Below the pieces are notes generated by a model, which saw only the letters and a list, made by a program, of their open reading frames with translations, was not told the origin of the DNA and made no database searches. This document shows positions 1,081-51,790 of a stretch of 64,000 nucleotides of DNA, piece by piece. Both the position numbers and the translations under genes were made by a program. The first letter of the stretch is position 1. Every line of letters begins with the position of its first letter. The DNA is from Astropecten irregularis (taxonomy: Eukaryota; Echinodermata; Asteroidea; Paxillosida; Astropectinidae), in the NCBI GenBank assembly GCA_963971285.1, contig OZ020248.1, positions 6,882,001 to 6,946,000 on the forward strand, in the 5' to 3' direction.

Positions 1081-3478
1081 AATTATTCTTAGACGACACA
1101 CAAAACACAACTTGAAACAAGGGTTTGACTTTTGGGCAGAGCTCATCGCACCGCTTATCTTTCTTTTATTTCAGCTTTTCAAACAACCAATTTTTGGTTT
1201 ACTTGCTTTACAAAATGGGGCACGTCTGCCCCAATACTTGCCACGCTTGGCATAAAATGGCCATGGGGCACGCTTGCCCAAATACTTGCCACGCTTGGCA
1301 TCTCCTGGCAGCTTGCCAAATACTTGCCACGCTTGGCATCTCCTGGCAGCTTGCCAAATACTTGCCACGCTTGGCATTTAAACTATCCCCATCTGAACAA
1401 ATGGGTGTATAGTCACAATGTAAATAATAATGATAATGAACTTACGCCGATTTTTTCCACCGTTGGCACATACGGTTGGAATGGGAAGCCCCGCCAGAAC
1501 AAGCGGGTGCTTGGCGTAGAGTTGTAACGAATGAACACGAATTAATTTGTTAACACTTTAAAGGTAAATTCAAAGTCTTCTTATGAACTATTTGTTCATT
1601 AATTTGAATTGAGGCACTGTTGCCCGTCGCTCCCAGACAATTCCTGTTTCACTTCCTTAAATGGAGGCGAAGGGGAGGTGGCGGGTTTATTTACGTGTAG
1701 CGGCAACGAAGAGCTATGCCAAAGTGACTGCTGGCGGCAATAGTAGCGCGTGACCTTGCTTCTTCATTTCTGTATGAATTTCAATGGTGACCTGAATTAT
1801 TTGCAAATGTATACATTGTATTAAATTTGTGCCAAAAAGGAGGAGGTGGCCAGGTGTCCTTACTGGGATCACTGTTGTTTACGTCTTTGCCTGAATTGTT
1901 GGCAACTGGCACCATGACCACATATATTAACTTAGCATGCATAAGGTGTGTGTCTGCTAACTAGAATAATGAATTTTATCTTGAAGTGATAAAATGAATT
2001 ATTCTTAGACGACACACAAAACACAACTTGAAACAAGGGTTTGACTTTTGGGCAGAGCTCATCGCACCGCTTATCTTTCTTTTATTTCAGCATTTCAAAC
2101 AACCAATTTTTGGTTTACTTGCTTTACAAAATGGGGCACGTCTGCCCCAATACTTGCCACGCTTGGCATAAAATGGCCATGGGGCACGCTTGCCCAAATA
2201 CTTGCCACGCTTGGCATCTCCTGGCAGCTTGCCAAATACTTGCCACGCTTGGCATCTCCTGGCAGCTTGCCAAATACTTGCCACGCTTGGCATTTAAACT
2301 ATCCCCATCTGAACAAATGGGTGTATAGTCACAATGTAAATAATAATGATAATGAACTTACGCCGATTTTTTCCACCGTTGGCACATACGGTTGGAATGG
2401 GAAGCCCCGCCAGAACAAGCGGGTGCTTGGCGTAGAGTTGTAACGAATGAACACGAATTAATTTGTTAACACTTTAAAGGTAAATTCAAAGTCTTCTTAT
2501 GAACTATTTGTTCATTAATTTGAATTGAGGCACTGTTGCCCGTCGCTCCCAGACAATTCCTGTTTCACTTCCTTAAATGGAGGCGAAGGGGAGGTGGCGG
2601 GTTTATTTACGTGTAGCGGCAACGAAGAGCTATGCCAAAGTGACTGCTGGCGGCAATAGTAGCGCGTGACCTTGCTTCTTCATTTCTGTATGAATTTCAA
2701 TGGTGACCTGAATTATTTGCAAATGTATACATTGTATTAAATTTGTGCCAAAAAGGAGGAGGTGGCCAGGTGTCCTTGCTGGGATCACTGTTGTTTACGT
2801 CTTTGCCTGAATTGTTGGCAACTGGCACCATGACCACATATATTAACTTAGCATGCATAAGGTGTGTGTCTGCTAACTAGAATAATGAATTTTATCTTGA
2901 AGTGATAAAATGAATTATTCTTAGACGACACACAAAACACAACTTGAAACAAGGGTTTGACTTTTGGGCAGAGCTCATCGCACCGCTTATCTTTCTTTTA
3001 TTTCAGCATTTCAAACAACCAATTTTTGGTTTACTTGCTTTACAAAATGGGGCACGTCTGCCCCAATACTTGCCACGCTTGGCATAAAATGGCCATGGGG
3101 CACGCTTGCCCAAATACTTGCCACGCTTGGCATCTCCTGGCAGCTTGCCAAATACTTGCCACGCTTGGCATCTCCTGGCAGCTTGCCAAATACTTGCCAC
3201 GCTTGGCATTTAAACTATCCCCATCTGAACAAATGGGTGTATAGTCACAATGTAAATAATAATGATAATGAACTTACGCCGATTTTTTCCACCGTTGGCA
3301 CATACGGTTGGAATGGGAAGCCCCGCCAGAACAAGCGGGTGCTTGGCGTAGAGTTGTAACGAATGAACACGAATTAATTTGTTAACACTTTAAAGGTAAA
3401 TTCAAAGTCTTCTTATGAACTATTTGTTCATTAATTTGAATTGAGGCACTGTTGCCCGTCGCTCCCAGACAATTCCTG
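1081..3478 (+). repeat. Tandem array, 916-bp unit, 2.6 copies
   Basis: Units start at 1081, 1997 and 2913, exactly 916 bp apart, and are nearly identical. The third stops at about 3478, where unrelated sequence begins. The near identity implies very recent tandem amplification or ongoing homogenisation. Each unit can be read as overlapping frames of 131, 95 and 68 codons that repeat only because the DNA repeats. These frames are dominated by the internal minisatellite and I do not call them genes. Parts of the unit recur at 9903-9965 and 13931-14190. Confidence 0.9.
1214..1378 (+). repeat. 38-bp minisatellite inside the 916-bp unit
   Basis: Two and a half copies of a 38-bp unit built on 'CTTGCCACGCTTGGCAT' plus 'CTCCTGGCAGC'. 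The same block recurs at 2130-2294 and 3046-3210 in the other two large units. 'TTGCCA' and 'TGGCA' occur on facing strands, so the tract can fold into several short hairpins. Confidence 0.8.
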
Positions 3479-9966: not shown

Positions 9967-12900
9967 CACGTACTCACGCGCGTCGAATTTAGTTTGCGCA
10001 TGCTCAGATTTCAATGGCCGCAATGCCCTAATTATCTGGCTATGAATATTCATGTTTACTGGCCGGTGATCGTATCCACCAATTGGAAAGACTCCTTACC
10101 CTATCTTATGTTTAATTCATATGTTCTTTGACCCCGGGAAACGAAAATGTTGTCCTCGAGCTACAATTTGCCCCCAAAAGCATCGTTGTAATGCATTTTA
10201 CTCAAAAGTTACGAATCATCAAATTTTGGGTCTGCTTTCAACGCAAATAACGTATTTTTTTAAAATCATCCGAATTGATCAATTATATTATTAAAACCCC
10301 AATTTTTATGGGAAAATGACAATCATATGTCGAAACTTGGAGTCTCGAAGTTTGTTTTGGTCGTCGTGACTTCCGAGCTACTTTTTTTTTAAGCGACAAA
10401 AAGGTAGGTATGAATATGGCTTTTTCACGCATTTTGGGTGTCTGAATAGCAGTATAATACGGGAAATAGTGCATAGCGTATATGAGAGAGTGCCACTTTT
10501 GTACAATCGCCATTAAAAATGTGGAATTCAGTCGTTTTAGACAGTCTAGGGGCCCCATATCATGTCGTCCTCGGCAGTAGTATACATGGTAGACGTCTTA
10601 GTATGTGACATGCAGGGCCAACGAGGTCAAGCCTCCGACAAGGAGATGAAAACAATGGGGGAAAAAATGTTTCACGCTATTGATGCAACGTTAATTCCCA
10701 TAGACTTTCGCGTGCTACAACCTGTTGACTAGGGAGGTTATGTAAGTTTTGGATGAGGAGGAGTGACTGATGGGGCTCATTAATTCTTACTTGCATTACC
10801 AATACCATCAGTACTCATAACCAATGTCATGAAATAAAAAAGGGGGAATAGTCTTCTTAAACTCTACATACATACATTACACCCTTTTTTTATAGATTCA
10901 AAATGAATTTAAAAAAAATGTATTCGACAGGTAGGGCCTACTTGTGTATTAAGTGCGGAGCTTTGTTTAAAGAATGAAAATGAGAGCACCTTTATTTTTC
11001 AATACAGAATAATCAATTAGGCCTACCGCCTACATATGTACATCTTACATGTAAAAAGAAAACGTTGCCGATCATGTTCAAGTCGGTTTATGTTTGGGTT
11101 TTGCCATTTTGTTTTGTATCATGAATATAGTTGATCTCCTTCTCAAAATGTCCACACCTCTTGCCGTACTTAACCAAACAAAATCAAGCTTTAAAAAACT
11201 GACTGATTTGCTTTGCTTCTCATTTCCAGGTCTTGCAAGATTGCCAGTCAGATTGGTAGCAGAAAGCTTCAGCTCATCAATCTGTTGTAGCACCAATGCT
11301 GAGTGGACCATGGTCCTGTCAAGAATCTTGACGCGAATTTGGAGGGATCGGCGTCACTTCTTCTCCGAGGCTGGGGAACACGGAGAGTTATATAAGACAC
11401 TGTACTTAGTTCACAAACTGTATACATCACCACAAAGTCACATATTATGACAGTGTTATCCTTAAAAGTGGGCATGTGGGCCAAGAAGTAATTTCTGAGC
11501 CAGGAGTTCCGAAGCGCACTGCGATGCCATGACAACATGATCAAGTGTATGCAAGGTGTTTTCCCTTCAGTGCACGGACAAGAAAATGGATGCAGTGGTT
11601 ACATGCACGTTAACTCGTCAGTGTCTCAAACTGAAAGGCAAAGGCCCTAGAGATTCCGGCGGGAATTTTTTTACTGTTAAATGCTGCCTTTAGGCAGGTA
11701 CATCTACATGTACTCTGTTTAGTATAAGGCAGTCTAATTATGACTTTTAATGAACGAAAAAGGACGATTGCAAGGTTATTTTGAGCTCAATTCCGTGGCA
11801 CTGCTGAATGCACCGGTTATTATTATCCTCATTCTCCAACTCTCCACCTACGAGTGCTATCCGAGTAAGCGATAAATCCTAAGTTTTGTGAACTGCACTC
11901 AGGTACATTTGAAAATTACTCATCCATAAAATAGGTTCTTGAAGGACAAAATTGTTTGCTTCCGAATTAGTGATTGTTCTGCATTTACGATACGCAGAGG
12001 CAGAGCCATAAAAATTTGGCCTAGGTCTCGGACTTTCATATGCAAACAAGTTACAAAAGTTTGAACGGTTTAGTGTGTTTTATCATTAGTCATGTACAAT
12101 TGTTTTGGGGAAGAAAAAGCAGTCGTTCCAATGCATAGGCTTATATCATTGAACAAAACAAAATATTTCATCAAAATTATTTCCATTGTTCCATAAAGAA
12201 CAATGATGTGTGTTGTTATTCAAGACCAAATACATTTTCCGATTGCAACAATTTGGACCAGGGGCCGATTTCATTATAAACGCTTTGCGATCATCACTAA
12301 AGACCAAATCCATCGCCACACGGAAAATTGCTTGGCAAAGTAGCGATCGATTTTCCGTTTAGCGATGGATTTGGGCTTTAGCGATGATCGCAAAGCGTTA
12401 GTGATATGCCGCGGCCCCTTGTTGACCTGGGACCGATTTCACTAACGCTTTGCGAGCCCAAATCCATCGCTAAACGGAAAATCGATCGCTACTTCGTGTA
12501 GTAATTTTCGGTGTAGCGATGGATTTGGGCTTTAGCGATGATCGCAAAGCGTTAGTGAAAATGACCTGGTAACAAGTTGAACTTGGATCAAGTTGACATT
12601 GGAACCTATTGACATTGACCTGAAATGTTGCCATGATCTTGACCGTTGCTTGCACTGGCTTGGCTAAACTTTATAACGCCCCGCCAAGCCTACATAACTA
12701 CTCTATTAGATTTTGGAGCTTCCCATAATTCCATTTCGGTAATCTGTATCTGAGGATTGAGAAAATAAATAAAGATGAAATGATTTATTACATGAACGCT
12801 GAATACATGTATTTTTGTGCATTTGAATTACATTAATTGTGGTCCATATTTGGGTATCAATATAAAGATTTAAGAGTTCATGTGTCTTGGATAGGTTTTG

Positions 12901-15978: not shown

Positions 15979-18736
15979 ATGGTTCTTGATATGGGAACGA
16001 TGCCAGGCAAACAAAATACCATGTTGATGATATTTTTGTTTTTGCTTACAACTTGTAGCTTGTGTTCGTCTGCAAGGAGCGCAGATCTCGTGGGTAAGTG
16101 CTGATGCAGTATTATGTACTATGATATTTTGGTAGTATACTGAAATAGAAATCTTCACAGATTTACCTATAACTTACAGGGTATAAAAATGATGTTGTAG
16201 AAACATACCGTTAAAAAGTTTCTGCCTGAAATGCTGTATTTATCCAGAAAAGAGTAAAACCAAAGACAAAACACAATTTTGATCATCTGATAAAAAATAA
16301 CGGTGACAACATTTTTTTAAATACTGTGGACGTTTTATCACTGTTTCCTCAAAAAGTGGGCACCGTACTTGGGACTGAAAATTTCACACATGACTATTAT
16401 TGTATCTCCTTAATATTTTTTGTCGATGAATCTTCATTTCTTACACAAAAACCAAAGTATGATATTACCTTTATCTCCACAATGACGAGGTTTTTGCCTA
16501 TCATCTCTGTAAGTGTCGTAGTTACGTGTAATAATGGTTAATCCAATCATGACAAACTACAGACAATGTGTTATTCTTTAAAACAAATATAAATTGCAGT
16601 GCATACCATGTTTTTATGTTGAAGATTGAGCAAAGGTGTTTGCAAACATGTGCACACTGCACAGTATCTGTCTTACTGTGATTTTCAAAAATGAGACAAA
16701 ATGTTTACGCTATTGTGGAACATAATACATGTAACACATAATGAAATAGTATTACTCAAATTAAATAACATTCTCGTGGTTTATGTTTGACCTTGATTCC
16801 CAGGCCTGTCTCTACTTGGCAAACCGACATCCCAGTCATCTACATATACAGGGTCAGTGAGAGCAGATGCAGAATTAGCCGTAGATGGTGATTCTACGAC
16901 GGACTTTCTGAGCGAGACATGCACTCACACTGGTAAGTATGATTCATTATTTTGGTTGAAATTAGGGGCACAATGTGTAAGGACACTATTATCTGGTCAA
17001 TTATAATCAGTCAGAAGAAAAAGATGCCGGTCAAAATAAATATAAAAAGCTTTAGATATGTCAGTTCTAGATCCATTGTACAGATTAAGGCAGGCAACAT
17101 CTTGTAATATGCCAACGACTGCCCTTGATTTCCACGAGGAATTATTTCTATTTGTCTAATTTAGTTTGGATGAAAATTCTGCGGACCATTCAGTACTTGG
17201 CCTCAACATCCAGGAAAAAAATGGCTAATATACATGTAAATTTGTTTTGTTGTTTCATTTTCCTTAACCTACAGTTACACTCTAATCCCTCTTGCGTTTT
17301 GTACTTCACCTATTTCTCCATCTTTCCTAATCATATTGCCTTCCCCCATCCCCATTCTTCTCCTCGCATTTGTTTTTGAAACCTTTGATCTTGCCTTCCC
17401 CTGACCTCTCTTTGTCTGACCACACTTATCTACCCCCCCTCATATTTGTCCTGACGCTATCATCCATTTATGTTTATATATACTGGCATGTTGTTGTCCT
17501 CTTGCCATCGAAACGCGACAGGCTCTCCTAACTCCAAACATTTAATATACTTCAGGTCATTTATGATTGATGAGCAGTTTGCAACAGTTTATTACTAGTA
17601 TTTTATTTTTGGTCTTATTCCTCTTCCAATTTATCTTCATTTTCTCAATAATGAGGATATGAAGTGCACCCCTGGTGGATAGTGGACCTTGAGACGACCC
17701 ATTACCTTGGTAATATCACTCTTGTCAACAGAGGAGACTGCTGCCGTGAGTACTCATAATCATTGCAATACGAATTAGAAAGCTCTGTCTAAATACAATT
17801 CAACTGCACCATTCATTAAATCAACATAGGCCTACCTCGAGTCTGGAAATAGAAAAACGGACTTCTTGTCACCTTTGGCGTCAGTGTTAATACATTTAGA
17901 CACGATTTTATTATATTTAGTCTTGTCTTCATCAAATAATGTGCAACTTATCTTCTCTATAATTGTTCAGTTGATTTACACTAAATTCTATTCTAAATTC
18001 TCAATACGTTTTGTCTGTGTGGTCTTATCCCACTACTCAGCCGAGCGACTTACCGGTGCCACCGTGCGTGTAGGTTTGAATGCCAACTATCACCAGAATG
18101 AAGTCTGTGGATCACCGGTTACTGAGGCTCAAGCATCAATCCCCGGGGGAAATGTGTCCTTCATGTGCGACCCGCCCGTTGCTGCCCGTTACGTCAGTGT
18201 CTACATTGATCCAAGCCAACCTGGTGTGGTGTATGTTAAGGGAGGGCTGGTCGTAACACTTTGCGAAGTGCTTGTGCATGAGGTTCCGATGGCACAGATG
18301 AAGACTAAAGGTAAGTACACACGTTCTTTAATGACATAGAACAAGACACTCCTTCACTCAAGTGTTATTTCCCATCGTTCCCATCAAATGCTGTAAATTT
18401 CTTCAATACTTTGCAACTAACCTGCTAAACTTTTTCTTTGCATGCACAGAAATCCGGACCTCGTGTGGCTTCAAGTTGCTCAAAGATGGCGCCTGTGTGA
18501 ACAACCCACGCCCTCTATTGACCACTGTCACCAAGTCGCTCATGCCGTGCACATTCGAGTGCAAACGGAATGCCGACTGTTGGTCCTTCGACTACGCACC
18601 GACTACCGGTCGCTGCAGGCTATTTCGTAAGGGGGAAGAAGACTTGGTACCAGACTCTGAGCTGGGCTGTTTCGTATATGCTGTTGTCGGCTGCAGTGTG
18701 ACTGCAGTTGAGGACATGCGTACTGGTTCGGCATAA
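15979..18736 (+). CDS. Secreted F-type lectin with C-terminal PAN/apple domain
   Basis: Five exons: 15979-16093, 16804-16932, 17665-17745, 18041-18310, 18450-18736, giving 293 residues. All four introns are phase 1, typical of shuffled extracellular modules. Residues 1-35 hold a hydrophobic signal peptide ('MLMIFLFLLTTCSLC'); Met1, Met5, Met8 or Met15 could start it. Residues 40-195 form an F-type lectin (fucolectin) domain: 'GKPTSQSSTY' at 44-53, 'AVDGDS' at 64-69, 'HPWWIVDLE' at 83-91, and 'RGDCCPERLTGATVRVG' from 104. Arg104, Asp106 and Arg111 fit the RxDx4R fucose-binding motif. His80 precedes Arg104 by 23 intervening residues, slightly shorter than usual. Residues 199-285 are a PAN/apple-like domain with six or more cysteines ('PCTFECKRNADCWSFDY'). 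Members of this family bind fucosylated glycans, often in innate defence. The stop lies at a MITE border, so the true C-terminus is uncertain. Confidence 0.85.
16105..16485 (+). mobile_element. MITE copy in lectin intron 1
   Basis: Member of the family with ends 'AAAGGTAGTATCATAC' and 'GTATGATACTACCTTT'. The left end is degraded; the right end reads 'CAAAGTATGATATTACCTTT'. The body keeps the usual landmarks ('ACATACCGTTAAAAAG', 'CTCAAAAAGTGGGCACCGTA'). No coding capacity. Confidence 0.75.
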
Positions 18737-19095
18737 AGGTAATATCATACTTATATCAAAGAAATGCAGATTCATGGGCAAAAATTATTTTCAATGAATA
18801 TACAGCAACATGCAGTCATCTGTGAAATTTTCAGTCCGATACGGTGCCCACTTTTTGAGAAAACACGGCAGTGAAAACGCCTGCATTATTTTCAAAATCT
18901 TTTCACCATTATTTTTCATCTTTGAAAAATCAAACTTGTTTTGGTCATTGGTTTCACTATTTTTCTGGATAACTACGGCATTTCATGCACACACAAAAAT
19001 CACGGTAAGTTTCTACCATTACCGGCATATACTAAGTATTAATTCTGTGACAATTTCTGTTTCGGTATGTTACAAAACCATGGTATTACATTTAA
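18735..19095 (-). mobile_element. MITE copy abutting the lectin stop codon
   Basis: Starts 'AAAGGTAATATCATAC' directly after the last lectin codons and runs to 'CATGGTATTACATTTAA'. It keeps the family body in reverse orientation ('GTGCCCACTTTTTGAGAAAA'). The TAA stop of the lectin frame at 18734-18736 overlaps the first bases of the element or its target site. Confidence 0.75.
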
Positions 19096-21490: not shown

Positions 21491-21804
21491 AAAGACACCC
21501 CCAAACTCTCTGAGTGGTCATAATACAAGGACATTGTAACTATTGTTCTTTGGAGGGCCTTATTATGCCAAAAGTGTTAAAGAAGCTTTTGTTTGTTTGT
21601 CTGTCTTTTGAGGTTGTCGGTCTGTCGGTTAATCAGGCATCTGGCTGTTTGTCTCTGTCAGACTGCATGTCCGTCTGTTTGGTTAATAATTTATCCATCA
21701 AATCTGTTTGTCTGAACACACCAACTAAGACTTGATGCGAACATGCGATGATTCTCCATCTAACATACACTTTCTCACCGAAATGACACAGTATGAGGCG
21801 AGTT

Positions 21805-22140
21805 AAAGGTAGTATCATACTTTGGTAAGAAACCAAAACAGAAATCATTCACAGATTTACATATAACTTACAAGGTATGAAGATGGTGGTGGTAGAAACA
21901 TACCGTTAAATTGTTTTCGTCTGAAATGGTGTATTTATCCAGAAATTAGTAAAACAACGACCGAAAATCTTTTTGATCTTTTAAAAGATCAAAAATAAAA
22001 GAGAAAAGACTTAAGAAATACTGTGGCCGTTTTTCACTGTTTTCTCAAAATGTGGGCAGCATATGGGACTGAAATTTTCGCAGATGACTGTTAAAATGAC
22101 TGTTTCACTGTAGGCCTCAGGCTAAATAATACTTAAATAC
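21805..22140 (+). mobile_element. MITE copy, right end missing
   Basis: Left end 'TTAAAGGTAGTATCATAC' at 21803 is intact and the body matches the family through 'TGGGACTGAAATTTTCGCAG'. The usual 'GATACTACCTTT' right end is not found before unrelated sequence. Confidence 0.7.
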
Positions 22141-22169
22141 CACGTTTAAAACTCCTTGCTTCGTGTTTG

Positions 22170-22403
22170 TTTTTACCAAATGGAATTATAGTATTACAAG
22201 GTACAATAATTCAGCAACCGTGGATTTCTATATTATGTTGTAAATTAGCCACTGAAATACACAGTCTGTCATATCTCCCCAACTTGTTTTTACCAAATGG
22301 AATTATAGTATTACAAGGTACAATAATTCAGCAACCGTGGATTTCTATATTATGTTGTAAATTAGCCACTGAAATACACAGTCTGTCATATCTCCCCAAC
22401 TTT
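22170..22403 (+). repeat. 117-bp perfect tandem duplication
   Basis: Two copies of a 117-bp unit ('TTTTTACCAAATGGAATTAT' to 'CATATCTCCCCAACTT'), apparently identical. 117 is divisible by three, so the duplication keeps an open frame of 87 codons, but nothing suggests that this is translated. Confidence 0.85.
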
Positions 22404-23999: not shown

Positions 24000-25580
24000 A
24001 GTTGACAATCAGTCTTTGATCCTCATCACCTGTGGATTATTACTTTCATCATATTGTGACCTTCAAAGGAATTAACCAATCTTGGATTATTGTCACCTCG
24101 ACAATTCACCGTGTGTCGTGGCTTCCTAACTAAAAGATGCTCATTCAGTGTTGTGTATGAATATTAGATGGATTCTGAGTGAGTGAGACTTCAAAAAGTT
24201 TAATATGGAATTGGTAAGTATATACCTTTATTTTGTTTACAAACATTGACTGGTGGTTGGAAAAACTTGGCATTGGGCAGCCAAAAGTTGCAAATCATTA
24301 CGTCTTCTTGAAGGACTGCGTAACCAAAAGCTAAATTTTTGCAAACTTTATATAGCTGTACCACAATCATTTATTGTGCTGTTTCCCTTACAGTCAGTAA
24401 TTATTTCAATGTTTATGAAAAGTTGTGTACAAAATGGGTACAAATTGTGGTTATTTATTATGCCTGGGTTTGACAGCTCGCCATAGTTTCCGCCATCTTC
24501 TTGGTTGGCAAAAACTCAGGCTGTGAATGTGACATAGCAAAAGAAAGGTCTATATAATTTATCTGTTGTCTTACAATGGTACAATGCTAATGAGGATATA
24601 TTAATTTTATCAAAATCATTTACCTTCCAGTGCATGCTTCTACTTAATTCGGAAAATATAGTTCTTTTCATATCTAGGCCTATGTACAGATGTACATGTA
24701 CATGCACATGAAATTTTTTGTGTATCCTGCCCATAATTTCAATTTTGTCTGCGCAGATGTTACATGTATCTATAGGTAGGCCTACTTTATCCCTAAATCT
24801 TGAAACAATTTCAAAAAGTATTCCAGTCTCTTAAAATTATTGTTGCATTCATGTCATTTATGCAATATAACAATTTAACTGTAAATATTTACTTGTAAAT
24901 ATATACACAGGGAAAATTTTATTCAAATGCAGTAATTAGTGTTATTGTCTAGGGATCTTTACACAAAAGATCACTAATTATTAGGCCCCTATATGTAAGG
25001 GCCTTTTAAATGTTGTATTATACTATATTGCAGACATGTAGGCCCTACATTATAGGTTGCCTTTGTGTAGACAGATCAGGATTTGCACAGTATAAATTAG
25101 ATCATTGTGAATTGGACCACGCCTACTGACCAGAGTCCAAAGTACCACAGTCCTCATAAGCATACACCCTAACTGATATTGTGACAAACGGGTCCACTTC
25201 AATACATGTAGTGTACATATATGGGCAATTCTCCATGGGAGAGGAAAAAATGTCAAAAATAAATCTGTACATATTGAACCTTTTTTGTACTTTTTCCAGA
25301 ACACAATTAAATGGGGAATTCAGATCAAAAAACGAAAATGCCAACAAATGTAAATTTGGGGTAAAAACAGTGATTTTTGCAATTTATGATTAAAAACGTG
25401 CAGATTTGGTAAAAAAATTTTTTTTGGAGTATATTTACCTTCTGAGTTACAGGGAAAAGGTTTGATTTATTTTATAATGTTACAGGTTAGCAACATTACT
25501 GGGGGTCATAAAAATATATATTATAAATATATATATATTTATATATATAGTGTATGCCTCAATTTAAAACTATCTATTTT
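24000..25580. other. No gene seen
   Basis: AT-rich. Contains a TA-rich microsatellite at 25495-25550 ('TATAAATATATATATATTTA') and nothing else that I recognise. Confidence 0.4.
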
Positions 25581-25584
25581 AGCA

Positions 25585-27440
25585 CGTAATTCCGTTACCG
25601 AAAAAATGGCAAAAGTTACTTATCTCACAGACTTTCTGGATTTTTTTTCTTGAAATCATGGATGTTAAGAAGGGCCCTACTATAAACATGAATGAAAAAT
25701 GAAAACTTAAAAAAAATAATTTCTTGGCATTTTTCCAAGTGGTAACGGAATTACAAAACGGTAACGGAATTACGGTAACGGAATTACGCATGCACAAAGT
25801 ATATACATTTCCATATACATATCACACAATTTAAGTATATGTGGCCAAAGCATGAAGATGTTGAATGTTATTGTGACAGCAACCATCACATTGATCCTAC
25901 CTGAACCCCAGATGGATCTAGACACATCTCTCAATCTACAACATCCAGTAACCATGGTAACTGGTGTTTTTATCCACAGATTGGTACAGTCTTGTTACAT
26001 TTTCCTTTTCAGAGATGCCAACCAGTACAGTTTGAATGTATTTTGCACGTTGAGCTATTGCAATTTTTCAGAGTAAAGTATGATTTCTAGTGGAAAAACA
26101 CATTTATACTATAAGTATGACTCTTTAATATGTTCTAAATTGCACAGTTTAGAGCATTTCCCATGTGTACAACTATTCCAAGTACACTTTTCTCTCTCAA
26201 TTCAGCTGCATTTTCAGGTAAATACTATTTTTGCTTCGGAAAAATACTGTTACTCTGTCGGGTACATGTACACTGTAGGCCTACTCTTTTTGTGGGCATA
26301 CTGTAGGTTGCCATCTCTGATTGCTGATCCATTTGAAATTTTTAGAATTCTATGCTGTTTTCTGAATGAAGTATAAATTAAGCAAATCCTTAACTAAGCT
26401 TGAAACATACTACTTCATGCATTGTTTCCATTTGCGTGATTATTAATTATTAAAACTATAATACATTTTTTAACATGGAACAAACCAGAGAGTCAAAAGA
26501 GACCAAGAACCTAGCAAATTAGAAACATATGCAGTTCATGCATTTGAAATATTTCCATTTAGGGCCAGGACACATTAGAGGCAGTCTTATTTGACAATTT
26601 TGTTTTCTTTTGCAAGATTACAACAGATCAATCCATTAAGCCCGTCCTTATATTAGGCGTAATGCTACCAAAAGTCAGCCAGGGTAAAATTCTCAAACTT
26701 GTATAGTGGTGATGTAGGCAATCCTGTGATTGGTCAATATGTAAAGAGTGGGGCTCAGTGTATTAGTCTATTAATTGGGTAACATTTGTACCAGCAATTG
26801 TACCAGCAATGCAGTCATCACCTGACTGCATTTCACCTTGACCTTTGACCTACAAAACAAAGCCTAGACATGTTTAGGCCGAAAATTACATTTTGATCTG
26901 TTAATTTTCACCTAGCCTATTATGTACATGTAGCTTTCCCCAGTGCCATTTTATAAACTTCTAAAATTTGTATTGTGATGAGTTCATGTTGAATTTAATG
27001 TTATGTATTGCGTTTACTGTATAAACACTATGGCGTAATTCCGTTACCGCCCAGCCGTAATTCCGTTACCGTGATTAAAATGCAAATTATGAAAAGAGTG
27101 ATTATTTTTTCAACTTTGCTCTGCATTGTAGTTAACAACACCCCTGAACTCTACAAATAACAGGTAGTGTCCAATTTTAAAATTTCAGAACTTCAGAGAG
27201 TTTTATCAATTTATGCAAGAACTCAAATATGCTTGTCCTCGGTCCGTAATTCCGTTACCGATATTAAGCTCCGCCCCTTAAAGGGTAATCTTTTGGGAAT
27301 TTTTTTTTTGTAGTGGTCTATCAATTCTATTGGTCCTTGGCTCCCTTTCCATGTTTAGATTAGTTGTCTAGCATAGAACATATTTTCTTTGGAAAGAATA
27401 ATCCCTGACAAAGTGACAAATGGGCGTAATTCCGTTACCG
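25585..27440. repeat. Cluster of eight 14-16-bp dyad motifs
   Basis: The motif CGTAATTCCGTTACCG occurs at 25585-25600, 27034-27049, 27056-27071, 27245-27260 and 27425-27440 on the plus strand. It occurs inverted at 25759-25774 and 25773-25788 (overlapping by 2 bp), and as a 14-bp core at 25741-25754. The motif has near-dyad symmetry (GTAA...TTAC), like a dimer-binding site. It is CG-ended in an AT-rich setting, and the sequence between the sites is not repeated. I found it nowhere else in the window. No gene lies between the sites. Confidence 0.85.
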
Positions 27441-27855
27441 AAGAATCGCCCATATATGAAAAATTGCTTTTCTTTTTATGATGGCATATAAATTCCCCGG
27501 GTTTTCCCCAGTAAATACCAATTCCATTTGAGCTAGAATGTGATTTGGAACATTTTGAATGGGCACCTGAAGGCTATGATCAAGGGCACCGAGGCAAATA
27601 AATGCCAACAAATAGATTTTAATTGTACGTGTATTAAGAAATTCTATTGAATTTGAATTGTCATGTCCATATGATTATATTTAATGGGAACAACAGAGTC
27701 AAATCAAATAGGATTTCAAGGTAACCACTAAATACTGCACCTGCATGTTTTGTACATTTGCACTGTGAATTTATTCCAAATCTCCAGGTGTAAAGATTAC
27801 ATCATAATCTTGCACATTGTTGGAATTTGTTGAACTCTTTGGAAAGCTCGGATAT

Positions 27856-28243
27856 TAAAGGTAGTATCATACTTTGGTAAGAAACCAAAATAGAAATGTT
27901 CACAGATTTACGTATAACTTACAGGGTATGAAACTTGGTGGTGGTAGAAACATACCGTTAAAATGTTTCCGCCTGAAATGGTGTATTTATCCAGAAATTA
28001 GTAAAACAACGACCGAAAATCTTTTTGATCTTTTAAAAGATAAAAGATAAAAGAGAAAAGACTTAAGAAATACTGTGGCTGTTTTTCACTGTTTTCTCAA
28101 AATGTGGGCAACGTATAGGGACTGAAATTTTCACAGATGACTGTTAAAATAAAATAAAATTGTTACTGTAGATCTGTCTTGGTATTTTTACCCATGAATC
28201 TGTATTTCTTTGATAAAAACCAAAGTATGATACTACCTTTTAA
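27856..28243 (+). mobile_element. MITE copy, both ends intact
   Basis: Begins 'TTAAAGGTAGTATCATAC' and ends 'AGTATGATACTACCTTTTAA'. Contains the internal palindrome 'GATCTTTTAAAAGAT'. No coding capacity. Good reference copy for the family. Confidence 0.85.
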
Positions 28244-28539
28244 TTTAAACAACAAGATGGCAGCTGTAAAATGCTTGTAAACTACTCATAAAAACACGGA
28301 GTAAGGAACAGAACTCCATGGTAAAACTGATCAGGGAGCTACATGTAGTACCAATGGCAACAGTCATCCGTGTCCCTTTTAATTATTTGCTTAAAATCAG
28401 ATCTTCCCATCTGCCATCCATCGTTCTTGCATCTATGAAAAAGCTCACACACAAGACTGGCAAAGAGATCCATGTATTGATCCATAGTACTGTTGCTTAC
28501 TCTGACTTTTGGCTAAGATCTTGTTAAGGTACAGTACTA

Positions 28540-28930
28540 TGCATACAAGATACGTGCTAAAGAATTATCACACTTCGGTTTTTGTCAAAGAAATACAGAT
28601 TCATCATGGCCAAAAATATCAAGGAAGATAATAACAGTCATCTGTGAAAACAGTCATCTGTGCCCATAGGTGCCCACTTTTTGAGAAAATGGGGAAAATG
28701 GCCACAGTTTTTCTTTTAGTCTTTTCTCTTTTATTTTTGATCTTTAAAATATCGAAAATAATGTTAGTGTCTGGTTTCACTCTTTCTGAATAAATACAGC
28801 ATTTCAGGTAGAACCATTTTAACAGTATGTTTCTATACCATCACCATCTTTATTCCCTGTAAGTTATAGGTAAATCTGTGAAGATTTATGTTTTGGTATA
28901 TGCTACCAAAGTATGATACTACCTTTAAAA
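28540..28930 (-). mobile_element. MITE copy in reverse orientation
   Basis: Right end 'AAGTATGATACTACCTTTAA' intact, left end degraded. Separated from the opposite-facing copy at 27856 by about 300 bp, so the pair forms a large inverted repeat. The 69-codon frame at 28318 between them has no support. Confidence 0.75.
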
Positions 28931-29869
28931 CCATGGTGAAAGGGGCTAAATGCACAATTTAATTGACACCAATGGCATGAATCAGATTTATATTAATCAG
29001 CGTACCATATACAGCTTTCTTTTAATCAACTTCAACACTTTGAAAAAAGCTGCTCTCTCATAAACCTTTCAAAGAAATTCCAGCACCTAAATAACAGGAC
29101 TGTGTAATCTTTGTTGGTGACTCAGCTTTACCATGGAGATAGCTCCATGTTTTACCCACCTGCAGTATGGGTTCCTATTTCGTTTCAAGTATAGAAACAC
29201 CCCTGGAGATAAAGTTTCAGTCAGTTTGAATAGGGTTGAATCTGGTATTGAAATGGATTTAATGTAATGAGGTTTTGCTTAAGTGCCCATGCACACATAC
29301 ATGTATTATAAACTGAATCATTAATTATATGCCCATGTTTACACACAATGGTAATTAACTGGTAGTCAAGTTAAGGCAATTTATCTATAGGAACAATAAC
29401 TCATCTCTCAATTGTCAATTAACTGTGGGAATTCTTAGACCCCCCAAATAAAACCCACCTATTGTGCCACCAAAGTTTTCCTTTTTGCATGCGCATACTT
29501 GGTATTGGATTACAGTGCTTGGCTTTCATACAGACATTAGGGCCCTTTTACTATATAGTTATAGGGATTTTTTGTTACAAAGTGTAGCATAGACCCACAT
29601 AACTGTATAACTCTACAGTTGTAAAATAGCGTAGGATGATAACGTGTAGGCCTATGTCACATAGAATTGAAGGGTATTTACATTGTGTTTCTGGCTTAAA
29701 TATCCTCATAATCTCTCATATTTAGGATTAAATTTAGTCTGTGTAAAGTTTTATGTACCTTATCAAAGGCACACAAAAAATTGTACACATTTAGTCATTT
29801 GTTGAATTTAAATGCGAGTAAGTGTGCACACTTCCATGAATATATTAACAAGAAAAACAATCTATGCAA
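28931..29869. other. No gene seen
   Basis: AT-rich unique-looking sequence with no supported frames or repeats. Confidence 0.4.
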
Positions 29870-30205
29870 ATGAGGCTTGCCCTTCACTGACGTCGATGAG
29901 CACTGTATACTCAGTGCTTGTGAGAGCACGTGAAAAAAAAATCACATGCTTGCTCAGGTGGGATTCGAACCCACGACCTCCTGCTTACTAGTGCAGATGC
30001 CTTTACCTGAAGCCACCGAGCTAGCTGGGGTCTGCAGGGTGAATCGAATCCAATATCGCGACGGGCATCTGCACTAGTTAGTTAGCAGGAGGTCGTGGGT
30101 TCGAATCCCACCTGAGCAAGCATATATGTGATTTTTTTCACGTGCTCGCAAAAGCACTGAGTATACAGTGCTCATCCACGTCGGTGAAGGGCAAGCCTAA
30201 TTTGT
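29870..30205. mobile_element. Foldback element with a tRNA-like B box in each arm
   Basis: Arms 29870-30008 and 30062-30205 are near-perfect inverted repeats. Each arm holds a tRNA-type B box ('GTGGGTTCGAATCCCACC'), and 'GAGCTAGCTGGG' in the short loop recalls a D-arm. Outer arm sequence includes 'TGAGCACTGTATACTCAGTG' and 'CTTGCCCTTCACTGACGTCG'. A one-arm fragment recurs at 43040-43130. Looks like a tRNA-derived SINE turned into a palindrome rather than a working tRNA gene, since no complete cloverleaf with an anticodon arm was found. Confidence 0.75.
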
Positions 30206-30669
30206 ATATTATCTATATCCCGACCAAAATCATTTAATATTCATGGAAAAAAAATCTAGTCAGTCACTACAAGTAATAAACTGCTGCAAACTAGTCATCA
30301 ACTAAAATAATGATCTGAAATTTTAAAAAATGCTTTGAGTTACGAGGGCCTGTCGACATATTAACACGGCCAACTCTCCCCCTCCTAGCTCAAGCATTCA
30401 GAAAAAAATAGAAGTAGGCCTAATAAATCAAAGTTGCCCACTGAACAGTCTTTTTGAAACAGTATGTCAACTGTGTACATGGACCATTCATTCAAAATAC
30501 ATGTTCAATATAGCAACAATCTGTTCAATACTGTTATACCATTACATTTGTTGTATATGATTGTGGACCATGTGTGATTGGGTACAGTGCATTTTATTGT
30601 GCTCGATCTTCATGCAGTGCCGCATATCGATGAACAAATAATTTGCATCAATTGGCAAAACTTTCCTTA
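30206..30669. other. No gene; degraded hairpin-family fragment
   Basis: 30265-30360 is a reverse copy of the interspersed family with 'GTAATAAACTGCTGCAAACT' and 'GAGGGCCTG' seen better at 59085-59367. The remainder is unassigned. Confidence 0.5.
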
Positions 30670-31035
30670 AAGGTAATATCATACATTGGTTTTTGTCAAA
30701 GAAATACAGATTCATGGGCATAATTATCAAGGAAGATACAGTAACAGTCATCTGTGAAAATTTCAGTCCCATATATACGGTGTCCATTTTGTAAGGAAAC
30801 AATAAAAAACGGCAACAGTATTTCTTCTTTTCTCTTATGTTTTTATCTTAAAAGATCAAAAATAATTTTGGTCACTGGTTTTACTCTTTTCTGGATAAAT
30901 TCAACATTTCAGGCAGAAACATTTTAACGGTATGTTTGTACCATCACCATCTTTATTTTATACCCTGTAAGTTACAGGTAAATCTGAGGATGTCTGTTTC
31001 GGTGTGCTACCAAAGTATGATACTACCTTTAATTT
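30670..31035 (-). mobile_element. MITE copy just upstream of the first myosin-region exon
   Basis: Left 'TTAAAGGTAATATCATACAT', right 'AGTATGATACTACCTTTAA'. It ends about 45 bp before the acceptor of the exon at 31080 and so leaves little room for the polypyrimidine tract and branch point. Confidence 0.8.
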
Positions 31036-31079
31036 CCCAGTTGTTGATCTAATGACCAATAACACTGTTATATATACAG

Positions 31080-33612: not shown

Positions 33613-33965
33613 GGTACTGTAATATTATACTTTGGTAGCCTACCGAAACAGCAATCTAAACAGATTTACCTATAACTTACAGGGTATAAAGATAGTTAGG
33701 GTAGAAACAAACTGTTAAAGTTTTTCTGCTTGAAATGCTGTATTTATCCAGAAAAGAGTAAAACCAATGACCAAAAACAATTTTGATCTTTTGAAAATCT
33801 CAAAATCAAAAATCCTGTGAAAAGATTTTATAATACCAACATTGTTGGTGTTTTCACTGTGTTTTTTTTTCCAAAAAGTAGGCACTGTATGGGACTGGGA
33901 ATTTCACAGATGACCGTTACTATATCTTTCTTGATATTTTTGCCAATGAATCTGCTTAGTGTTTG
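33613..33965 (+). mobile_element. MITE copy in myosin intron
   Basis: Left end 'TTTAAAGGTACTGTAATATT', body with 'GATCTTTTGAAAATC' and 'GTAGGCACTGTATGGGACTG'; right end lost after 'GCCAATGAATCTG'. Confidence 0.7.
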
Positions 33966-37352: not shown

Positions 37353-40135
37353 GTACGTCATGCAAAGGAAGGAACGAAGACGGATCCATCCGAGGTTCTC
37401 TCAAATTCATGGGCAACCTGTCCAGATCACGCAAGAAGAACGGTAAGTACACAAACTCCGGACAGTATGGATATACCATTCACCCATTTCATGCATCTTA
37501 AAGGTACAGTACAGGATTGGTAACATACCCCAACAAAAATTTTCACAGATTTTTGTATAACTTTCAGGGTATGAAGATGGTGCTAGTAGAAATACACGTC
37601 TTTGCAGAAGCCTGCAGATTCTTCCTTCAGTACTTTCAGTACCTTTATTATTCAAACAATAAAATTTCTAATTTCTAATTTATCTGCTGCCGTCATCTTT
37701 GTTGGTGTCAGACAGCTTAGGCTTGTCATCAGAAGACATTTCTTTGTCATCTGCAATCATACTCTGAACTGGAATGTGGGGTGTCTGACAAATACATATA
37801 GCCCTTCTGCAATATCTGACATCCAATATCGATCCTTCTTTTCAGGCACGAAGAAGCCCAGTCAAGATGAGGAGCAGGACTTGTCTGAGTACCTGGATGC
37901 CGTGTCCTTCACCAACTCCCCCATCCAGGTATCCCTCCTACAGTACCCCTCAGCTGCCATCAATAAACTGGCCCTGGAATGCTTCCTCGGTAAGCTCAAA
38001 TAGTCAATACGTACAGTTCAAACAATGCGTTCATCACCACAAGAGGGCGCTGTAGGATGGCGCAGTCCGTTAAACAATTGAATCAGACCGAAATGAAACG
38101 ATCTGATATAAATCATCAGGGGTCGATTTCATGAAGCCCTACGAGCGATAGTAACTTGGATTATGACGGATAACTCTTTCTTTCCTACGTAGGGTTGCAA
38201 TTATGCACCATATAACTCCTATGATCAAGTTACGATGAGTTTGGTGAAATAGACCCCTGGGACAGATTTTACTAACGCTTTACGATCATCGCTAAAGCCC
38301 AAATCCATTGCTAAACGGAAAATGGCTACGCAAAGTATAAGAGATCAATTTTCCGTTTAGCGATGGATTTGGGCTTTAGCGATGATCGCAAAGGTTTAGT
38401 AGATCGGCCCCAGATCATAAATCAACACGATGAATGCTCATTTTCTCAGTTGTTCACTCTCTCCTGTGAATGAACCACAGTGTATAGCCAGACATTAAAA
38501 TCTGTTCATACTTGTGATAAATATGATAAACTAATATTATAAAGCCCATATCACAATTAAGAAAGTAAAAGTCACTATTTGCTGGCTGGTATAATTAATT
38601 CTGGAAATTTGGTTACATTTACATTCCTGAAACCATCCCAGCTCCCTGGGGAGAACAAAATTGAACGCGAAAGTATGGAATTCCAATTTGATTTTTTTTA
38701 TCCAGCTCTGATGCAAATCATGGGAGATTATCCTTTGAATGCGAATGCATCGACATCACCGCAGGAGGCACTAAATGGCAGGATGAGCTTCATCTTGAAG
38801 GTAGGTATACACCGCTTCGACGGCACGATATACTGTCCGCCATTACTGCAGTGTCCCCGTTTTACTTTTGTCCGGCAACAAAAGAATTTACGCTCCGCCA
38901 CACTCTATAACTGCAGGGTGTATAATTCCCATGTTTAGGGGACGTACACCCTGCAATATAGAGTATGGTGGATGTAAATTCTTTCGTTACCGGACAAAAG
39001 GCAGGCGGGGACACTGCAGTAATGGCAGGTGTTTCCTACCTCCATGGTCGCGCCGTCGGATCGGATGTACATGTACAGGCCCAAATATCCACTCCCACCA
39101 TCTCATCAGGTACTCATCTGACAGAATTTCACATTTTAATGCACATCGATGGTGCTTCATTCATGGTTCAGATTTCACACAACATTAAGGGACAGAAACT
39201 TTACTACTGGCTGGACCAGCCACTGAAAAGTCAGGCCAGGAGTGGGCTTTGCCTGGGGTCTTTGGCTTCTATAATCCCCAGCCTTGAACTAATAACCTCA
39301 AGCCTCTGCTGTTGTGGATCAGCGTTGGCATAAACCTGATTGACAGACTGAGTCCACATTGATCATGGACTATCCACTATCCAAAAGCCTGGCTTTATTG
39401 ATTTGGAGCAGCTCTGTTGTAGTGAAGTTCAGGGCTGACAAGAGGAGGATTTCATCAGGCCCCTTAGCCTAGGTCCAGTCAAGCTATTCAGTGGCTGAGA
39501 CGACCGAGTATTAAGTTGTTAGTGACTGTCTTAATTCTTCAAAGGTTTGCTTCGGTCACCGTGAGATATGTGATGAAATCTACTGCCAAGTCATCAAGCT
39601 GACAACCAGAAACAGGAGCTCTAAGAAGTGAGTAAATAGTCATTGAAAGTTGAAGAAAGAAAAATAACCAAAGTGGGGTTTGAACCTGCGACCTCCAGAA
39701 TACCATTCCAGTTGCTCTTCCAATGACCAACAGCTATCCAGTGCTATGTTGAATGCATCCCAAATTGTCAATTATCTTTGTTCATCAACCAAAATAATGA
39801 TCTAAACTATATGATGCTTAGAGTTTGGAAGGCCTGATATGTCAGTCCTCTTAGCTTTTTTCTGAATGATCCGTTACTTGAGGGAAATCTCCTCTCATTT
39901 CAATTCCAGATTGAGTCTTCAAAATGGCTGGCGTTTCTTCGCCCTCCTGACTGCCATCTTCCAGTGTTCACCCATCCTGAAGCTCTACCTCTTCCAGTAT
40001 CTGACCATGGTCGCCCACACGGCCGACTTCAAGTTTGGTGGCATGGCCGGCGTATGTCTGTATAATCTACGCAAGACGTTCAGGTTTGGTGGAAGGCGCT
40101 TGATGCCTGGACCTGAGGAAGTAGAGCATCTATTG
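37353..40135 (+). CDS. MYO15: Myosin XV exons: MyTH4 domain
   Basis: Five exons: 37353-37442, 37846-37989, 38706-38800, 39545-39627 and 39910-40135. They read through 'EYLDAVSFTNSPIQVSLL', 'KLALECFLALMQIMGDYPL', 'CDEIYCQVIKLTTRN', 'LQNGWRFFALLTAIFQCS' and 'NLRKTFRFGGRRLMPGPEE'. These align block by block with MYO15A ('FTKTPLQESLIELS', 'ATDMFLAVMRFMGD', 'RDECYCQVVKQITDN', 'CQRGWRLLYIVTAYHSCS', 'NLQKTLRFGGR'). MyTH4 domains bind microtubules and tail cargo. All borders are GT-AG with consistent phases, and there are no lesions in this part. Confidence 0.9.
37500..37600 (+). mobile_element. MITE fragment (left end only)
   Basis: 'TTAAAGGTACAGTACAGGAT' then 'TTTCAGGGTATGAAGATGGT'. Breaks off after 'TAGTAGAAATACA'. 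Confidence 0.6.
38115..38415. mobile_element. Two foldback elements back to back
   Basis: 38120-38265 ('GGGGTCGATTTCATGAAG' facing 'GGTGAAATAGACCCC') and 38270-38415 ('ACTAACGCTTTACGATCATC' facing 'GATGATCGCAAAGG'). The second belongs to the same family as 12261-12565. Confidence 0.75.
38810..39065. mobile_element. Foldback element, CCGACGGC family
   Basis: Arms face each other around 'CCCATGTTTAGGGGACGTAC'. Outer arm 'GACGGCACGATATACTGTCC', inner arm 'TTTGTCCGGCAACAAAAG' and 'ACTCTATAACTGCAGGGTGT'. A second copy is at 43728-43985. Both lie in myosin introns and have no coding capacity. Confidence 0.8.
39640..39735 (-). mobile_element. tRNA-derived SINE fragment
   Basis: Minus strand shows 'CGCAGGTTCAAACCCC' (B box) followed by an A-rich tail, as at 35228. 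Begins 13 bases after the exon that ends at 39627. Confidence 0.55.
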
Positions 40136-40499
40136 GTAAGGATTCCTCCTGTATAAATGCTTGTCTCCATTTGGGTCAATTATTTCTATACAAGGACAAA
40201 GAAATTAAGACACTGGCGTCAGTTTCGCATGTGATACCTCCCTCGATAACGAGGACCACACTGTGGATAATTCTGCATGCATGTACTTGCTCCAGCCCGT
40301 GGCAAAAAGTGAAGCGCAACAAAACTTGCTTTATCCATGAAAACCCGCTCTCCGTGTAAAGCCAGAGCATGGTTTATGCACAATAGATGTAAATACATAT
40401 CCATTTGATTATTTACACGTTACAGAACACGTACGAATATATAAGTTAAAATGATGTGACTTGTCACCTTGCCATTATTGTTTGCTATGAAATTATAGC

Positions 40500-40766: not shown

Positions 40767-43700
40767 GCCGGCCGTATGACGCGACGCCAAAACGTCCATC
40801 TACCTGGCAACTTGCAGACAATTGTCAAGGTATCAGCCAGTACAGTAGTGACATCCTGGAAGAGGTATGCAGCGAGATGAACATACAACAGCCTGCAGCT
40901 ATTGAGGAGTTTAATCTCTTTGGACTGGTGCCTGCAAGTAAGTGCCAGCTTAGAATGTTGGAGACAAATTTGTACGGGCATTTTAGCCTTTGAGAGAGAC
41001 CCTACGCACCTTTGAGGAAGACCCTGCTGGGATCAAAATGTCAGGCCCTCCTAACCCTGAGCAATTTGTACGCACGTTTAGGCTCTCTGAGAGATCCTGT
41101 CTGGATTGAAAGGTCAAACCTAGCCCCTAACTCTAAGCTTCTTTCAGAAAGATCCTGCTGAGATTGAAACATTATGCCCTCCTAACTCTAAGCATCTTTG
41201 AGAAAGATCCTGCTAAAGATTGAAACATCAGGCCCTCCTAACAAGCAACTTTGAGAAAAATCCTGCTAGAATTGAAACATCAGGCCCTCCTAACAAGCAT
41301 CTTTGAGAAAGATCCTCCTAGGATTGAAACATCAGGCCCTCCTAATTCTACGCAAGATTTGAGAAAATCCTGCTAGAATTCAAACATCAGGCCATCCTAA
41401 CTCTAAGCATCTTTGAGAAAGATCCTGCTAAAGATTGAAACATCAGGCCCTCCTAACAAGCATCTTTGAGAAAGATCCTGCAAGGACTGAAACATCAGGC
41501 CCTCCTAATTCTAAGCAAAATGTGAGATAAATCCTGCTAGAATTGAAACATCAGGCCCTCCTAATTCTAAGCATCTTTGAGAAAGATCCTGCTAGGATTA
41601 AAACATCAGGCCCTCCTAACTCTAAGCATCTTTGAGAAAGATCCTGCTAGGATTGAAACATCAGACCCTCCTAACTCTAAGCATCTTTGAGAAAGATCCT
41701 GCTAGGATTAAAACACCAGGCCCTCCTAACTCTAAGCATCTTTGAGAAAGATCCTGCTAGGATTGAAACATCAGGCCCTCCTAACTCTAAGCATCTTTGA
41801 GAAAGATCCTGCCAGAATTGAAACACCAGGCCCTCCTCACTCTAAGCATCTTTGAGAAAGATCCTACTAGGATTGAAACATCAGGCTATCCTAACTCTAA
41901 GAATCTTTGAGAAAGATCCTGCTGGGTTCAAAGTGAATTTTTTCACAGACTCTTTTCAACACAACTCTTTTCAAACATTGATTGTTTGTGTCCATGTGTT
42001 ACTTAGAGAACAGAGTGGTCAGCTTGCAGCATACAGATTATTTGATGGACGCCATGACCCACTTCAACAACCAAGGATGCCAGTGCGCTCTCCTCTTCAA
42101 GAAAGTCTTGTGGTACCAGCCCATGCATATTACCAACAGCTTGCATGCAGCTGTCATCTATAATCAGGTACTGCTTGAATATCAGTCACTTCATGTTTCA
42201 TGTTTGTGTCCAGCTTTCCTTCATAGCTGATCCTCCTGTGCGGCATATCGACCTCTCTCTTGAGAACTAACCAGAGCACATTGGCTGGAACGTAGAGTTA
42301 ATACTCGAGGTTCTTTTATTATTATTTAATTCATTTTATTTATTTATTTCTGGTAATGACACCAAGGATTCCTCAAAAGCTCTCTAGGCACTGTAGCTTG
42401 AAAGCCTGATGAAGCCTTTTTTTATGGAAAATGATGAGAAGAAGATACAGTTTTAGAGGTGGGAGGAAAACCCCAGAGTACTATTCTGGGTATAATCCCA
42501 CAGAATCAGGTAGGGACTGAAAACCCAATCCACTTGTGGACCAAGCCGGACTTAGATCCGGTCCACAGAAGTGAAAGGCGAGGAAAGAACCGCTAAGCCA
42601 ACCTGACTCCCCAGTCACTTCTTTCCAAAAGAATATAACGGTATATCCGCAAGTCTTCTATCTGAGAATCCTAATTGATGAGCTTTTGGTAATTTTTTGG
42701 TCTATGCAGGTCCTGCCGGATTACCAGAGTGGTCATCTGATTGTCATGGAGGGTAACACACTGAGTGACCAGCAGCAAGCTAAGATCGTTACACTGGCCA
42801 TACTGCAGCACAGAGCGGCTGATAAAATCCAAATACCTACACTGTGAGTATTAAACAATATGATATTACTGGGTAGAAATCTGTATAATAGTACATTTAT
42901 TAATACATGTATTGCATAATTATCAGTCATTCTCCGGCCAGGGGCGGATCCAGGGGAGTGTGGGGATGCCGTTTAATGATGGATTTGAGCTATAGCGATC
43001 GATGGTCGTATAAAGCGTTAGTGAAATTCAAAAAGCAAGCGCATGATTTTTTTCATGTGCACTCAACAAGCACTGAGTATGTGCTCATCCGCGTTGGTGA
43101 AGGGCGAGCCTAATTTGCATATAATCTCAATCATGTGACCTAACAGGAAGGACCTTGCCTAGCTGGTACCGCCTACCCTCATCCACCACATGAATCAACA
43201 GCAGTGGTTGAATCTAATCCATGCTGAGCTTCCATTGCAGGAATCCACCACTCCACAAGAAGCTCAGACACAGTTTATCAACACAGTCACCAGCTGGCCG
43301 CTCTTTGGATCCACTTTCTTCGACATCGCCGTGAGTATTAAATTATACGGTGGATTAAAGGCACTGGGCTCTCACCAATGTGGCCGGGGTTCGAACCTGG
43401 ATGATCTACTTTCTTTGACATTGTGAGTATTCAGGATATATGAATTATAGGGTGGAAGTAAGGCACTAGCTGGCCCATCACCAATGTTTCCAGGGTTCGA
43501 ACCCAACCTGGGTCATTATGTGAGTAGGCTTTTGCGTATGTTCTCAAGCTCTGTGCTCCATGCTATTATTTTTGTATGCATCGTGTCAGAGTTCAACATC
43601 CTCGGATCCATATAGTACAGTTTCCAAGCGAGACATTTGCGTCTCGTTCTTTGCAGTTTTAGGATGAACAAGTGAAACGCTCATTGATCTCCTCCTAGTA

Positions 43701-51740: not shown

Positions 51741-51790
51741 CAGCTGTGGTACATGCACACACTGACAATCTGCTAAGAACCACCAGACAG

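Follow-up and report, generated by a model that had tools for sequence, protein, structure and literature searches.

An array of eight near-exact 16-bp sites in the starfish Astropecten irregularis, best read as docking sites for a putative DNA-binding protein

We analysed a 64-kb stretch of the Astropecten irregularis genome (contig OZ020248.1, positions 6,882,001 to 6,946,000; hereafter the window), in which a cluster of short repeated sites lies between two coding features. By Pfam, a PAN exon accompanied by a weak, below-cut-off F5/8-type-C match occupies 17.8-18.7 kb and a MyTH4 exon occupies 39866-40153, both on the plus strand; against the PDB, the MyTH4 exon gave no match at 0.001. Fourteen ORFs of at least 90 aa are listed between the two exons. 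Eleven of these, including the two within the cluster, were scanned and none reaches the Pfam cut-off, from which we infer that the array is intergenic or intronic; weak sub-cut-off matches occur in two scanned ORFs outside the cluster. A coding repeat is ruled out, as neither ORF of the cluster has a Pfam match. A 55-bp minisatellite of 14.6 copies follows the MyTH4 exon on its downstream side, at a distance of about 1 kb (41126-41923).

A scan of the window for the 16-mer CGTAATTCCGTTACCG at up to three mismatches returned eight matches, five on the plus and three on the minus strand, all within 25585-27440 (Table 1) and in the same numbers as given by the first-pass annotation of this DNA. 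The chance level at this tolerance is a mean of 0.19 and a maximum of 1 (100 dinucleotide shuffles); the cluster is real and uncommon. Identity is 16/16 in seven of the eight copies, and the 14-bp core GTAATTCCGTTACC is common to all of them. Copy 2, previously described as a core only, differs from CGTAATTCCGTTACCG by just two changes, C to T at position 1 and G to A at position 16, which are the transitions expected from deamination of methylated cytosine in the outer CpGs. The 2-bp overlap described alongside it was also found, between copies 3 and 4. Loosening the scan to four mismatches adds just two matches, at 25765 (a self-overlap) and at 12724, so that the motif has almost no halo of degenerate copies; its reported absence from the rest of the window holds at up to three mismatches, but not at four.

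Each of the eight copies of the 16-mer contains the dyad word GTAAY-N3-RTTAC once, and the word is found nowhere else in the window. The near-dyad form GTAA..TTAC that had been proposed is thus present, although by inspection it is partial, with 8 of 13 positions symmetric. Resemblances to what we take to be Myb (TAACGG), NFI (TGCCAA) and PAR-bZIP half-site (GTAAY) sequences were considered and are not claimed. The copies form two groups, at 25.59-25.79 kb and 27.03-27.44 kb, in which start-to-start spacings of 14, 19 and 22 bp separate neighbouring copies. Previously these groups were suggested as possible inverted and direct halves of an element; the right group is indeed all direct, with four sense copies, but the left is mixed, with one sense copy followed by three antisense.

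Table 1. Positions in the window of the sites, the second motif, the candidate transposon frame and the MITE-like copies.
Feature	Position	Strand	Source and remarks
Copy 1, CGTAATTCCGTTACCG	25585..25600	+	Motif scan; exact
Copy 2, TGTAATTCCGTTACCA	25740..25755	-	Motif scan, column comparison; core exact, outer CpGs lost by transitions
Copy 3	25759..25774	-	Motif scan; exact; 2 bp (one CpG) in common with copy 4
Copy 4	25773..25788	-	Motif scan; exact
Copy 5	27034..27049	+	Motif scan; exact
Copy 6	27056..27071	+	Motif scan; exact
Copy 7	27245..27260	+	Motif scan; exact
Copy 8	27425..27440	+	Motif scan, TIR/TSD search; exact; 10 bp inside candidate right terminus
Second motif, AAATGCCAACAAAT	25336..25349	+	Motif scan; modest significance
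Second motif, AAATGCCAAGAAAT	25719..25732	-	Motif scan; 1 mismatch; beside copy 2
Second motif, AAATGCCAACAAAT	27600..27613	+	Motif scan; outside candidate element
Candidate left TSD, CATATATG	25216..25223		TIR/TSD search; weak
Candidate left TIR, GGCAATTCT	25224..25232	+	TIR/TSD search; weak
Candidate right TIR, AGAATCGCC	27442..27450	-	TIR/TSD search; weak; 8/9 complementary to left
Candidate right TSD, CATATATG	27451..27458		TIR/TSD search; weak
MITE-like copies	27855-28240, 28566-28928, 21803-22097, 16116-16472, 18735-19095		Self-BLAST
MITE-like copies, continued (the family also has fragments)	30669-31040, 33619-33954, 54865-55190, 57425-57785, 59474-59832		Self-BLAST

Conservation stops sharply at the edges of the motif. 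Within the 16-mer, each column is conserved in seven or eight of the eight copies, and no column up to 12 bp outside it exceeds five of eight. The mean pairwise flank identity of the CGTAATTCCGTTACCG copies is 0.26; among the 219 14-mers with at least five exact copies in the window, the three 14-mers of the motif rank lowest, followed by two homopolymers (0.31 and 0.32) and the remainder at 0.35 or above, in agreement with the earlier description of the intervening DNA as unrelated. Self-BLAST of 24000-29500 aligns nothing between the site groups beyond single motifs, extended by a few adjacent bases, and pairs of motifs aligned together. Self-BLAST and flank identity together rule out a longer interspersed repeat within the window as the source of the copies, a case that had been raised for those on the plus strand. 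That the cluster is neither a tandem repeat nor part of the MITEs is likewise borne out: Tandem Repeats Finder reports just the overlap, a 2.2-copy 14-bp piece at 25758-25788, and the nearest MITE-like copy by self-BLAST starts at about 27850, with no overlap. A structured RNA is ruled out at Rfam gathering thresholds, which yield one match in the window, a tRNA at 29950-30022. The RNA fold of 25575-25800 has a z score of -2.84, with 4 of 200 shuffles folding equally well or better, and the inverted copies alone could account for this score.

The clean edges bear on a quite unlikely origin for the array, in which a short, functionless unit was recently scattered locally by template switching, micro-duplication or gene conversion and is exact through youth. 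Copies 3 and 4 overlap as a 14-bp-period tandem, which together with the close spacing of neighbours means that some copies may be local duplications. Yet distant copies have no recognisable likeness outside the 16 bp, copies lie in both orientations and up to 1.8 kb apart, copy 2 has lost both outer CpGs with its 14-bp core intact, and no mechanism known to us would move 16 bp so cleanly.

The sites keep their CpGs amid CpG-poor DNA. Observed/expected CpG is 0.60 for the whole window and 0.197 for the non-motif DNA of 25585-27440 (10 CpGs in 1,730 nt), and 21 of the 31 CpGs of this span come from motif copies; the non-motif DNA of 25223-27451 has 13 CpG against 305 TpG+CpA. Counted per copy, the motif retains 22 CpGs of 24 and has lost two (Fisher p about 1e-23, to be taken as no more than a guide, the copies being non-independent); since copies 3 and 4 have one CpG in common, the distinct count is 21 of 23. 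Across the neighbourhood at 23.4-29.7 kb, most 300-bp bins carry one to four CpGs, the richer bins being those at 25501 (9), 27001 (12), 27301 (6) and 27901 (6). The exactness of the motif and its CpG retention mean either that selection holds the sites or that they are of recent origin. Given the sharp edges, the unrelated flanks and the CpGs kept, the CGTAATTCCGTTACCG copies are discrete sites, maintained or recent, and not a longer repeat.

The eight copies are best read as docking sites for a putative DNA-binding protein, whether it belongs to the host or to a mobile element. This reading follows from the excess over the chance level, the sharp edges, the lowest flank identity and the CpG retention; as a class of explanation, an array of recognition sites for one putative protein has good support. 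Binding sites had been suggested from the outset; the isolated, near-exact units in both orientations agree with that suggestion, and the binding itself is putative.

If the protein belongs to a mobile element, the cluster would be the inside of a 2,227-bp non-autonomous DNA transposon and the 16-mers subterminal sites for a transposase or accessory protein, an explanation that we regard as possible but do not prefer. The candidate frame (25224-27450) encloses all eight sites between 9-bp inverted repeats, GGCRATTCT with one mismatch, which are flanked by a perfect 8-bp direct repeat, CATATATG; this TSD is palindromic, which makes the point where it gives way to the TIR ambiguous. Copy 8 sits very near the right end, but the left 361 bp of the frame are without any site. 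Comparable frames were sought up to 600 bp either side under four criteria, in 300 shuffles and in 139 real stretches that were shifted and partly overlap. The strictest (TIR 10 with one mismatch, TSD of at least 6) is reached by 6/300 shuffles and 4/139 controls, whereas chance reaches the others more often: 14/300 and 11/139 for the same TIR with a TSD of at least 5, 16/300 and 5/139 for TIR 12 with two mismatches and TSD 6, and 32/300 and 12/139 for the latter TIR with TSD 5. Depending on the criterion, a comparable frame thus turns up in 2-11% of the shuffles and in 3-9% of the shifted controls.

A first search (12-bp TIR, up to two mismatches, TSD of at least 3) gave 16 hits, where 12 shifted controls gave 0-4; of the 16, three are phases of the candidate frame and two use the 16-mer itself. 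A wider search, covering 2.8 kb either side with 12 controls and four settings, gave 4 hits against 0-5 (TSD of at least 7, 10-bp TIR), 5 against 1-8, 21 against 1-17 and 38 against 14-49, so that the count lies inside the control range for three of the four settings; many hits are pairings between parts of MITE-like copies. The frame is weakly above chance and, as several search settings were tried, suggestive and not proof. Elsewhere in the window, no second copy of the 2.2-kb block or of GGCRATTCT was found.

hAT elements have an 8-bp target-site duplication of the form nTnnnnAn, and their terminal inverted repeats begin CA/TA. The candidate TSD, if a true duplication, would have the 8-bp length of hAT but does not match the nTnnnnAn form, and the candidate ends are GGC...GCC in place of the CA/TA type. 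By Pfam, hAT transposase is absent from the two cluster ORFs, which counts against a transposon, although non-autonomous copies may lack one. The arrangement of the sites bears some resemblance to that of hAT ends: in excerpts of the Hermes (PMC10368747) and Kat1 (PMC4763223) studies, subterminal repeats are, as here, short sites in both orientations with a left/right polarity. At the Hermes left end, STR2-7 are all antisense and STR1 is not, and right-end STR1-5 are sense (PMC10368747, in the part describing the ends), a pattern that the orientations of our sites resemble. The hAT repeats in these excerpts are of 4 bp (AAGT/AAGC) and 6 bp (AATTCA), those of Hermes being concentrated near the tips, unlike our 16-bp sites with their site-free left end.

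Two other element structures were set aside. The motif itself could serve as TIR with a TSD of AAG at 25740/27440, but a 3-bp duplication arises by chance in about 1/64 pairs and 12 motif pairs qualify. For ISL2EU (PHIS) transposons, an excerpt of PMC4482050 gives an AT duplication within A/AT/T, whereas a border at GGGC leaves flanks of T/AT/element/AT/A, which depart from that rule. Should the 16-mers prove to be transposon-end sites, they would define a family of elements whose subterminal sites are unusually long.

Searches of sequence collections bear on a further source, an integrated DNA virus whose origin or latent maintenance the sites would serve, which we consider highly improbable. 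Exact iterated sites in two groups do recall viral origin-binding-site arrays. However, direct pairs of the 13-mer core 0-30 bp apart are absent from viral and genome contigs, as are pairs 160-190 bp apart from viral contigs; prokaryotic or viral arrays of the motif are thus rejected at the direct-pair spacings scanned. The 14-mers by themselves are present in at least 120 stretches of viral contigs, with one occurrence in each of the 80 listed, and the ORFs inside the cluster lack a Pfam match. In the PMC library searched, the 13-mer has no match on either strand, four 12-mers match a single paper, by its title on salmon nutrition, and four 10-mers match 244 papers; the titles of the 40 listed did not seem relevant, and one of these papers, PMC6559805 (Arabidopsis meiosis), contains all four. 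We found no description of the CGTAATTCCGTTACCG motif there, which for the 10-mers applies among the matches listed.

Between the two kinds of protein, we lean, short of demonstration and with slightly less than even confidence, towards an array of sites for a host factor over transposon-end sites. A second motif of 13-14 bp, AAATGCCAA[C/G]AAAT, occurs three times over about the same span as the 16-mer cluster and counts for a host array; its third copy falls to the right of the candidate element, a position that speaks against the transposon and slightly in favour of a host array of wider extent. None of 30 shuffles of 25200-27700, with the main motif removed, made any 14-mer with three copies at one mismatch. 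Likewise, 14 of 25 real 2.5-kb bins lack such a 14-mer, and in nearly all the other bins that have them they are tandem or interspersed repeats, although the bin at 20001 also carries a dispersed three-copy word. Against this, the second motif is unremarkable window-wide at two mismatches (5 found against 2.39 expected). Clusters of factor sites are usually degenerate, unlike the seven exact 16-mers here with almost no intermediate copies; moreover, exactness and CpG retention would also follow from recent origin, and the weak transposon frame encloses all eight sites.

The array has the form of a homotypic cluster, with one site repeated many times over about 2 kb and spacers that are unrelated. 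Its nearest printed precedent in form, to judge from an excerpt of PMC2615030, is the YY1-site cluster CSE2 of the mammalian Peg3 imprinting control region, which in about 2.5 kb likewise holds many copies of one short CpG-bearing site with no obvious spacing pattern. The Peg3 sites have an 11-bp core, GGCGCCATCTT, and lie in a single orientation in a CpG island and first intron (PMC2615030, same excerpt), whereas the 16-mer array has 14-16-bp sites for a putative protein in CpG-poor, AT-rich DNA and in two orientations, the latter a point against a host array. In C. elegans, according to an excerpt of PMC3820632, clusters of short motifs at pairing centres recruit the zinc-finger proteins HIM-8/ZIM, and an inserted cluster suffices to restore pairing. 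The clustering of short motifs is similar, but the HIM-8/ZIM motifs are enriched at pairing centres on certain nematode chromosomes and ours form one local cluster in one window.

Under the favoured host-factor explanation, the 14-16-bp word would be the recognition site of one putative sequence-specific DNA-binding protein, and the eight sites in two groups would act together as a multivalent landing platform. Such a platform would most likely be a regulatory or chromatin element of the host, placed in the non-coding DNA that separates a PAN-domain gene from a MyTH4-domain gene. The protein presumed to bind the CGTAATTCCGTTACCG sites would tolerate little variation, for example as a dimer on the GTAAY/RTTAC half-dyad or as a multi-finger protein, and would act in either site orientation, with selection keeping each site. 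A bolder version, which we think unlikely, is an undescribed animal protein that needs an essentially exact 14-16-bp site and recognises it in two-group multivalent arrays marking insulator, imprinting-like, pairing or silencing places, the CpGs of the site making binding methylation-sensitive. If the array is indeed of the host, its exact, searchable site offers a route to the factor and its target loci.

The window holds several other repeats. Full copies of the MITE-like family measure about 330-390 bp and carry the ends AAAGGTAGTATCATACTTTGGT; ten that exceed 290 bp match the 27855 copy at 70-94%, and this copy has TTAA at or adjoining both ends. A foldback-like block at 12279-12553 contains AACGCTTTGCGA and CCAAATCCATCGC four times each in alternating orientation, and CCAAATCCATCGC is present also at 38360 and 40632. 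Three near-identical copies with 916-bp spacing, each with a 38-bp minisatellite, occupy 1116-3359, and a 117-bp unit forms two perfect, presumably very recent tandem copies at 22167-22402. Lastly, a long array with strong GC skew spans 50571-51742, in which a GTCAAGTCA-like 9-bp word is arranged in 55-bp and other higher units.
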